Source of the DNA: Apoderus coryli
Lineage: Eukaryota; Arthropoda; Insecta; Coleoptera; Attelabidae
Assembly: GCA_911728435.2 (NCBI GenBank)
Contig: OU452204.1
Location: 15,996,001 to 16,060,000, forward strand
DNA: 64,000 bases
Direction of reading: 5' to 3'
The notes below the pieces were generated by a model, which was given only the letters and a program-made list of their open reading frames with translations, was not told where the DNA came from and made no database searches. Of this stretch, positions 53,101 through 56,100 are shown piece after piece. A program made the position numbers and the translations under genes. Numbering within the stretch: position 1 is the first letter of the stretch; each line of letters starts with the position of its first letter.

Positions 53101-56100
53101 TTCAACGCTGTCTGTTTTGTTCCCGGAACCTTTGTCTTTGTTTTTCGTAAAACATTTACTGCCTCTATCACTTCCGCGGCGTACTGAGAGATCATACCGC
53201 AAGAAACTGCGATTTACAGCAGCTTGAAATTAGAGAGATTGGTGAAGACGATGTTTTCAGAGCACTTAAATCGTTTAAAGCTAGACATACTTCGGGTCCG
53301 GATGGTGTGCCTGCTGTCTTCGCTAAACCGATTTCAACTATATTTAATCTGTCATTGAAATGTAATGAGTTTCCGAATTTCTGGAAACTGTCTAGGATGA
53401 GCCCCATCTTCAAAAAAGGTGATAGGCAGGATATTAGAAACTACCGGCCTATTGCCATACAATCGAATTTTGCCAAGTGTTTTGAGATCGTGTTGCATGA
53501 AGTTTTGTTTAATGATGTCAAGCGGCTCATCACGCCTATTTAGCACGGATTTTTTCCTGGCCAATCCACTGCTATTAATCTCGTAATTTTGAGCCAGTTT
53601 TTGGCAGAAAGCTTGGATAGCGGGGGTCAGGTCGACGTTATTTATACGGATGTTACCAAAGCCTTTGATAGGCTTGACCACGGAATTCTGCTGCAAAAGC
53701 TTTCGGAATTTGGTTTATCTTTTAAAATTTCTGTCTACTTATCTCCATGAACGTAAATTGTATGTGGAGTACCGTGGTTTCAAGTCCGGTATTATCCGTG
53801 CAACATCTGGAGTGCTGCAGGGTTCTGTGTTGGGTCCCCTCTTATTTATGTATTTTATTAATGACATTGTTAATGGCGTGAAATGTCGCTCCTTACTCTT
53901 TGCTGATGATTTTAAGGTTTATTCACTGATTACCTCAACTTCTGACTGACTTCAATTGCAGAATGATCTGAATGTCCTGCTTGACTGGTGCATTCAAAAC
54001 AGGTTTGCCCTTAATTTGGATAAGTGTTGTTCTGTAACTTTTACTCGTAAGGTAAATCCAATAGGATTTGTGTATAACATTGAGTCTATTCCGCTTAAAA
54101 TATGCGATGAGAGTAGGGAGTATCGGCGCATCTATGTGTTGGTGGTTGCTTTATGGGGTCAGAGACCTCCCAGGCAGTCGATATAGGAACTGTGTTCACT
54201 CTGCGTACTACCAACAATAAAACTAGATGTCGCCAAACACATCCTTTTACATCTCTGTACCGTTTGTGGTATATACCACATTATTTACGAGAGTTTGGCT
54301 GTCAACTACTGACCGATCACCACTGATGAATCGTGGATCGACGAAACGGCCGTCTGGGAAATATGTTTCAGTTTGGTGAAAGTATAGTGGTTGACAGACA
54401 AACTCTCGGATTTTAAGTCTTGTTTTGTTAAACAAGCCCATTCCAAATATATGCGATCCCGCTTAAGGGAGTATCGGCGCGTCTATGTGTTGGTGGTTGC
54501 TTTATGGGGTCAGAGACCTCCCAGGCAGTCGATATAGGAACTGTGTTCACTCGGCGTACTACCAACAATAAAACTAGATGTCGCCAAACACATCCTTTTA
54601 CAACTCTTATTTTGACTATTTTTTGCGATTGTAATATTTGAATTATTTATAATTTTGAAACGTGTATTTATGTTAATTTTATCGTTTTGTAATGTACCTG
54701 CCCTGTAATTGGATGTGTTTCTGTCTGGGTAGATGTAATCTAAATAAATAAATAGATAAAAGACTCAAACCGGCCTCCAAATTGAAGTCTAGGAATCTGG
54801 AACATGCAAATTGGCTCTGATATTTTTCACCTTTGGTTCATTCGTGTGGCACAAGCAAGAAGTTGTTTATTTGAAATGTTTCAGGCATAAAACTGGTTTG
54901 AAAGAGTTGGAAATTCTCAAAAAATTAAATGATGCAGATCCAGAAGATAAATTGCATTGCCTGCGCTTAATAAGGCATTTCTTTCACAAGCAACATTTGT
55001 GTATGGTGTTTGAACCATTAGCGATGAATTTACGTGAAGTTCTAAAGAAATACGGTAAAGATGTTGGGTTACATGTTAAAGCAGTGAGAAGTTACACTCA
55101 ACAGTTGTTGCTGGCTTTAAAATTGTTAAAGAAAACTGGAATATTACACGCTGGTAAGTATTTTGATTCAACTTGAATCAATAAATATTAAAAGCGTCCA
55201 TCGTTTTAGATATCAAACCCGATAATATCCTGGTGAACGAAAACAAGTTAGTGCTAAAACTTTGCGATTTTGGTTCGGCATCTGTGGTGAATGAAAACGA
55301 AATTACGCCATATTTGGTGTCTCGATTCTATCGAGCTCCGGAAATTATCATGGGAATCCCTTACGAATATGGCATTGATATGTGGAGTGCCGCATGTACT
55401 ATTTATGAACTTTACACAGGGCGTATAATGTTCTCCGGAAAATCAAACAATCAAATGCTGAAATTTTTCATGGATTTGAAAGGAAAGTTTCCGAATAAAG
55501 TTATTCGAAAAGGGGCGTTTAAAGATCAGCATTTTGATGCGAATTGTAACTTTTTGTATCATGAGATTGACAAGGTCACTGAAAGGGTGAGTTTCAATGT
55601 TTAGTTGTGTAAACTTGAATATATTTTTAATGAACTTCTTTGCATTAAATCACTGGATCAATTTGATCTTTATATTAATAACAATTTTGGTCACTCATTT
55701 ACATAGAGCTCAAGCCAATCTAGAAGTGTATTCCATCGAACATCCTGAGCTAAGACCAATTTCTGGTGATATTTTCTCGAGAATCATGGGGGCAAATATC
55801 AGAAATGACCTATCGCTGTAAAGCAGATAAAAATGCTTTAAAATGATATATCACTCGACCCCTACTGATATAGGAAAATTTAGTGGTTGTGTCCACCCCT
55901 ATCACAGGGCTTAAGCGATTTCAACCAAAAACTAATGGGTTTATCCTAGGACTCCCTCAAACTTATATACCAAACACACCACAAAAATACATCATAACTC
56001 CTTGTACAAAATTTTCAGGTCATGTGCAAGAAGTTTGCCAAAAGCACATAAATATCAGGTGGGCAAATTTGAGATTAGGAAGTAAATTGGCTAAAAAACA

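Follow-up and report, generated by a model that had tools for sequence, protein, structure and literature searches.

The window analyzed here, a 64-kb stretch of the Apoderus coryli genome (contig OU452204.1, positions 15,996,001 to 16,060,000 of the forward strand), contains a hammerhead-bearing repeat, designated E1, which according to the original prediction lies inside a LINE in an intron of the PRPF4B gene. Both parts of this context were confirmed: a reverse transcriptase remnant was recognized upstream of E1 (RVT_1, E 3.2e-6, although its 27.4 bits are below the cut-off of 29.6), and kinase exons are located downstream. The features of this region are listed below (u denotes the position within the repeat unit, counted from the hammerhead cut; alpha and beta are two sites of the unit, described further on).

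53151..54114, + strand: decayed LINE reverse transcriptase remnant containing E1
54115..54602, + strand: E1, a single-armed copy of a family-1 retrozyme (approx. 1.4 units), running from u93 to an end at beta (approx. u229)
54115..54256, + strand: 142-nt repeat, copy 1
54466..54607, + strand: 142-nt repeat, copy 2, whose likeness to the unit ceases at the beta site
54301..54395, + strand: type I hammerhead of E1, including outer and inner stem I
54323..54329, + strand: core box CTGATGA
54330..54342, + strand: stem II and its loop, with a basal A-C pair
54343..54347, + strand: core box GAAAC
54352..54354, + strand: GTC, the cleavage triplet of the family, with the cut after 54354
54355..54373, + strand: 19-nt insertion private to E1, at the cut/ligation junction (u332/u1)
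54886..55152, + strand: PRPF4B kinase exon directly 3′ of the intron, read from an open frame
55212..55586, + strand: PRPF4B kinase exon (best PDB matches to the PRP4 homolog, E 8.4e-64)

E1 represents a decayed retrozyme insertion that carries a hammerhead, and belongs, in damaged form, to a large and young family (family 1) of a known kind. Comparison of the window with itself recovered the predicted spacing of 351 bp between the repeat copies (142 nt, 98% identical), but not the predicted unit length, since the unit comprises 332 bp and the period of 351 is the sum of this unit and the 19-nt insertion. Similarly, the core boxes CTGATGA and GAAA and the 6-bp inner stem I of the proposed hammerhead were found, while its cut site and the extra hairpin in stem III were not: the Rfam model and the sister copies place the cut at GTC (54352-54354^54355), instead of at a GTT generating a 5′ end at 54374, and the supposed hairpin is in fact the private insertion at the cut junction. 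The GTT site had at first seemed to be supported by a relative of E1 (E2, described below), which carries GTT^TGGTGA, but it was rejected, as the sister copies carry GTC. The unusual A-C pair at the base of stem II is real, and results from a private G>A change at 54330 (G-C in the intact copies).

The pattern CTGATGA..GAAAC occurs twice in the window, with 0.15 sites expected (1 of 100 shuffles gave two), and the arms of stem I extend over 35 nt with 80% complementarity, the inner stem included. The covariance model RF00163, the check proposed originally, did match E1 at 54317-54360, albeit with 24.9 bits, i.e. below the curated cut-off of 34 (E 0.0012 over 711 nt, 0.11 over the whole window). 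In predicted folds, the hammerhead conformation of E1 lies 12.6 (GTT) or 17.2 (GTC) kcal/mol above the minimum free energy, compared with 8.7 in an intact copy, which suggests that the private changes render the hammerhead fold less competitive in E1. Furthermore, with one hammerhead placed between two partial repeats, the transcript of E1 itself could not be cut twice to give a circle of unit length.

No target duplication around E1 was seen by eye, the likeness between the 19-nt insertion and the strand following it was not significant (187 of 2000 shuffles scored as high), and a pattern scan of viral contigs gave 0 matches. The LINE flank at 54067-54109 (and also 54423-54457) resembles u54-88 of the unit, and none of 2000 shuffles scored as high; this may reflect either a target preference or chance.

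The self-comparison of the window also revealed a diverged, head-to-head relative of E1, with the following components.

58924..59524, + strand: E2, diverged head-to-head relative of E1
58924..59078, − strand: inverted left arm of E2, ending at beta (u233)
59082..59158, + strand: hammerhead A of E2, core CTGATGC (A9>C), GTT^TGGTGA
59417..59482, + strand: hammerhead B of E2, core CTGATGA, cut strand deleted
58915..58921, + strand: left target-site duplication CATGTCA (7 bp, by eye)
59525..59531, + strand: right target-site duplication CATGTCA (7 bp, by eye)

The right arm (+) of E2 ends at approx. u74, which corresponds to alpha (by eye from the alignment). As judged from the sequence, E2 is a member of a diverged subfamily that uses the same two end sites, alpha and beta, as family 1. 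Neither E2 nor the inverted insertion architecture was part of the original prediction. A common secondary structure accommodates E1 and E2 (43 of 44 cells are paired, in an alignment of two sequences only), with double compensation in 6 of 22 pairs; slid partners gave 0-1 such pairs, and 8 of 500 shuffles reached 6. A model built from E1 and E2, applied to the window with a limit of E 10, detected no site other than E1 and the two hammerheads of E2.

In the 428-Mb genome, E1 has matches in at least 157 places, representing at least 40 loci (the best 40 of 1388 candidates were scored). The sample of 39 sister loci taken from this list consists of the best-scoring, and hence the youngest, copies. 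Two of these loci, L040 and L069, belong to the same duplicated contig region: both were kept in counting target duplications, insertions and arm lengths, and one was dropped for the target-base context, shared variants, arm ends, hammerhead count and mirror symmetry. Distant extra matches in L057 and L064 were also dropped.

The sister loci define a unit of 332 bp with the cut at GTC^TGGTGA. Among 133 hammerhead seeds in 38 loci, 122 were perfect, a further 6 had intact core boxes and 5 were changed (one of the latter, in L063, is apparently false). This is the reverse of core boxes varying between conserved flanks, which had been named in advance as the pattern speaking against a ribozyme. 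The idea that the E1 hammerhead is a chance look-alike within the decayed 3′ region of a LINE, which could be drawn from its score below the Rfam cut-off when E1 is viewed alone, is refuted by this conservation and by the covarying relative E2, and its probability is negligible. Even the intact units of locus L031 reach 33.8 bits with RF00163, just under the cut-off of 34, so that there is no gathering-level match.

The assignment of the repeat as retrozyme-like was thus upheld: family 1 is a multicopy family of tandem units of a few hundred bp with a type I hammerhead conserved in the sister loci. It shares with the metazoan non-LTR retrozymes, the published units of which have 170-400 nt (excerpts of Cervera and de la Pena 2020, PMC7229834), the small tandem unit, the type I hammerhead with a short stem III, a GC content below 50% (0.449 here, i.e. 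45%), a strongly self-paired circle (predicted) and target duplications of more than 4 bp. An insect example of tandemly repeated hammerheads is the pDo500 satellite of Dolichopoda (PMC2837043).

Insertions of at least 4 nt were found eight times (seven in sister loci, and one in E1), and three of them are located at or beside the cut/ligation junction, which is a significant enrichment (p 4e-5 when three positions are counted, and 5e-4 when the zone is widened to seven). It was E1 that drew attention to the junction; when it is left out, 2 of 7 insertions remain there, with p about 0.002 to 0.009 as calculated by hand. The junction insertions of L050 and L068 duplicate the 7-8 nt that immediately follow the cut, and their exact placement is ambiguous.

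Analysis of the insertion sites revealed a strict architecture. Double-armed insertions were found in 27 of 38 loci, all of them head-to-head, (−)(+), with the 5′ ends meeting centrally, and the remaining 11 loci were single-armed (8 end at alpha and 3 at beta). Outer 3′ ends were located at alpha (u72-79) or beta (u227-245) in 64 of 65 cases, the exception being L049 (u177), and 26 of the 27 double loci carried one end of each type (p 1.9e-7 compared with independent choice). The 65 inner ends, in contrast, were evenly spread (KS p 0.25), with 8 in the alpha or beta windows, where approx. 10% are expected. Target duplications of at least 8 bp, mostly approx. 12 bp, were present in 30 of 39 loci (compared with 3.1% of mismatched flanks) and missing in nine. 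The context of the duplicated sequence, determined for the 29 of 39 loci with duplications of at least 9 bp, showed a symmetric tendency, AAN|TSD|NTT (A at −3 in 23, T at +2 in 22 and T at +3 in 20 of the 29).

Arms longer than one turn of the unit were common (50 of 66), the longest comprising 4085 nt (approx. 12 turns). Arrays of this length, built of nearly identical units, would be produced if the family were amplified as a satellite at the DNA level, by unequal crossing-over or reinsertion of DNA circles, with inversions arising by rearrangement; such an origin appears highly improbable, since target duplications, fixed outer ends, the strict (−)(+) order and random inner ends are all unexpected in this case.

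Template-borne variants, i.e. those carried by at least 2 units, were compared between the arms. Of 14 such variants, 13 were common to both arms, compared with 0.38 expected (positions 66-80 and 225-246 were excluded), which suggests that both arms were copied from a single RNA molecule, or from a single variant of the RNA. Of the direct inner joints, 12 of 19 displayed microhomology of at least 2 nt (16% expected, p 5e-6); eight of the 27 joints were left out of this count, seven with filler sequence and one with an overlap of 36.

At the genome level, E2 has at least 104 matches (the best 40 of 3157 candidates were scored). Among the partial matches listed that end between query positions 52 and 329 (n=26), eight ended at u75-84, nine at u226-235 and nine elsewhere. 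A further 16 listed matches stop at query 47-51, and ten start at query 288; both of these ends are combined in at least four listed loci, e.g. C1:24792276-24792708. Such copies span the stretch between the beta site and a point shortly ahead of the hammerhead cut, in contrast to the random inner ends of family 1.

We also identified a second hammerhead unit in this genome (family 2; 519-525 bp), which is unrelated in sequence to family 1 and has weak Rfam matches (Hammerhead_HH9, 20.6 bits, cut-off 52). Among the loci listed (the best 39 of 1443 candidates), 37 were (−)(+), one was (+) and one (−). Ten of these 39 loci were selected for analysis of the ends: all ten, each double-armed, had one short (u128-137) and one long (u161-183) end, and eight of them were flanked by duplications of 12-14 bp.

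According to a review, metazoan retrozymes contain no conserved motif from which their autonomous partner could be deduced (excerpts of PMC7761336). Penelope-like elements (PLEs) have been considered a strong candidate on the basis of shared hammerheads, tandem copies and coexistence (excerpts of PMC7229834), and either LINEs or PLEs were named again later (excerpts of PMC11722881). GIY-YIG matches are abundant in the genome studied: we found at least 150 (the best 150 of 1260 candidates were scored), one of which adjoins an ORF encoding RVT_1 plus GIY-YIG, and all 18 pairs of neighboring matches within 6 kb were arranged (−)(+). Six PLE loci were sampled, and the ends of five, belonging to one family, were compared. 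In four of these five loci one short and one long outer end were present (judged by eye), 34 nt apart by hand count, while L083 had the short end plus another end; the flanks share words of 11-14 bp. A hammerhead-like motif was located upstream of the ends in all five loci, the ends lying at +50 and +84 from the cut (hand count), and RF00163 matches were found near both ends in the three PLE loci scanned (18.3 bits, E 3, not significant alone). The locus of another PLE family, L087, had neither an RF00163 match nor a hammerhead-like motif, and no short and long ends were discernible.

Family 1 exhibits the traits of PLE-type insertion: its arms are arranged head-to-head, its two start sites follow a hammerhead, and a target duplication is present. 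The 332-nt unit is too short to represent a PLE with an ORF for RT and GIY-YIG, and it showed no significant likeness to the six PLE loci (best E 0.16). The distance between alpha and beta (154 nt) is also larger than the gap of approx. 30-34 nt in the PLE family and family 2.

Three of the five PLE loci (L082, L084 and L086) are mirror-symmetric palindromes, and this symmetry fits self-priming as well as two primings. In self-priming, proposed for Penelope palindromes (excerpts of PMC3846280), a single cDNA folds back and copies itself into the second arm. Extending such a process to the retrozymes seems very unlikely to be correct: their arms are unequal with unrelated inner ends (2 of 27 loci were symmetric, with 1.7 expected), and their outer sites differ, whereas a fold-back copy should stop at the start of the first arm.

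One locus, L085, links the two types of element. It has two PLE arms (1049 and 706 nt, counted from the short site), and the center between them is occupied by a stretch of 863 nt from family 2 (L085:1993-2855), the 3′ end of which, u127, adjoins the family-2 short start site. No duplication flanks this insert (the best shared word has 4 nt). The simplest reading is that a PLE cDNA went on along a retrozyme RNA from its start site in a single insertion event; a separate insertion of family 2 exactly at the center is possible.

Twin priming of LINEs generates an inverted 5′ part and a microhomology joint, with both target strands used as primers; in its classical form, the second start is internal and variable, and one outer end is fixed. 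Family 1 resembles LINE products in its microhomology joints and in the proposed use of both target strands as primers, but differs in having two fixed outer ends and arms that run around the template many times. Mobilization of retrozymes by a LINE, with ordinary twin priming giving the inversions and PLEs merely coexisting, would agree with the LINE remnants in the window, one of which harbors E1, and the duplications of approx. 12 bp and AT-rich targets would suit a LINE endonuclease too. We consider this unlikely, as both outer ends are fixed (64/65), with one of each kind per double locus, a pattern also seen in one PLE family here, and as the chimera in L085 connects a retrozyme with PLE cDNA. 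The comparison of the two-site pattern covered PLEs and family 2 of this genome.

The two sites were also located in predicted RNA structures. The circular 332-nt RNA has a predicted minimum free energy of −113.4 kcal/mol (z −6.1), and in this fold alpha is unpaired (0.74-0.97) and placed opposite a partly unpaired beta, at the junction of two long arms; 6 of 332 8-nt windows are as exposed. The E2 circle is predicted to fold similarly (mean values of 0.76 for alpha and 0.67 for beta). In the family-2 fold the short site is predicted to be mostly exposed and the long site not clearly so (31 of 525 windows are as exposed), and the local fold predicted for the PLE revealed nothing clear.

The explanation that we regard as probable is that family-1 circles are copied by a PLE enzyme from both target nicks, with circular RNA as the template. 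Intact copies would be transcribed by read-through, the hammerheads would cut the multimers at GTC^TGGTGA, and the 332-nt RNA would presumably be closed to a circle. A Penelope-like RT/endonuclease acting in trans would nick both target strands approx. 12 bp apart at AT-rich sites, and each nicked 3′ end would serve as a primer for reverse transcription of one and the same RNA. Synthesis would start at either of two fixed internal sites, alpha (+72-79 relative to the cut) or beta (+227-245), and in the predicted circle these sites may lie on opposing sides of the central junction. The two cDNAs would then proceed around the circle, with the number of turns varying, and microhomology would connect the ends where they stop, so that two arrays in head-to-head (−)(+) order come to be flanked by a target duplication.

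This preferred explanation can be compared with the behavior of a lizard PLE, in which both strands are cut and extended at AT-rich targets (PMC11167929). In that element, the hammerhead cut lies 26 bp and the cDNA starts 111-118 bp into the ORF, which places the starts 85-92 nt after the cut, and the start sites agree with the genomic tail. The same study reported no start-site difference between the strands and found hammerhead cleavage dispensable in vitro; we count both observations against our explanation. For Penelope itself, head-to-head inverted pLTRs, duplications of 8-10 bp and a 31-bp tail that may be present at one of the ends have been described (excerpts of PMC3846280). The features common to PLEs (PMC11167929; excerpts of PMC3846280) and family 1 are head-to-head inverted ends, target duplications, the use of both strands (proposed for family 1) and internal start sites downstream of the hammerhead, with the PLE tail being optional on one end. 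The retrozyme differs in lacking RT and endonuclease, in the separation of its sites (34 nt in the PLE) and in the absence of mirror symmetry of its arms.

A broader proposal, which we advance tentatively and with not quite even confidence, is that animal retrozymes parasitize PLEs: the two RT ports of the circle may be used at once, one per nicked strand, probably by a single PLE dimer with both subunits engaged on the same circle, and each complete insertion would then be a bidirectional rolling-circle product. In the same proposal, the "hairpin" of E1 and the two similar insertions would be a scar of RNA ligation at which the RT stumbles.

The head-to-head insertion grammar with two ports, matched by one PLE family of the same genome, is a new and testable result. 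The excerpts of PMC7229834 make no mention of head-to-head arrays or of two fixed start sites; the words "orientation", "opposite" and "head" are absent from them, and the passages with "invert" refer to "invertebrate". Head-to-head retrozyme insertions are likewise not described in the titles and abstract openings of the open-access papers found in literature searches. The grammar points to an autonomous partner from genomic scars alone and supplies exact start sites for testing. It also ties a hammerhead circle to reverse transcription primed by both strands of the target, and offers a natural route to inverted tandem arrays.

Several other elements were observed in the window. A shortened copy of 18S rRNA (27983-29232, − strand; 1250 bases aligned over the 1831-position model) is probably a pseudogene. 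The region 31675-36498 is a tandem duplication of 2412 bp with 99.96% identity, which may be recent or an assembly effect; each copy contains an open frame of 569 codons for a transposon-like protein, 98% identical to unnamed contigs, with a firefly protein as the best named match (81%) and others from beetles, as well as from a lizard and Hydra. The same 22-bp minisatellite forms two arrays (36581-36935 and 40458-40922), and the segment 4548-4691, which gave weak scores for several microRNA families on both strands, is probably an inverted repeat.
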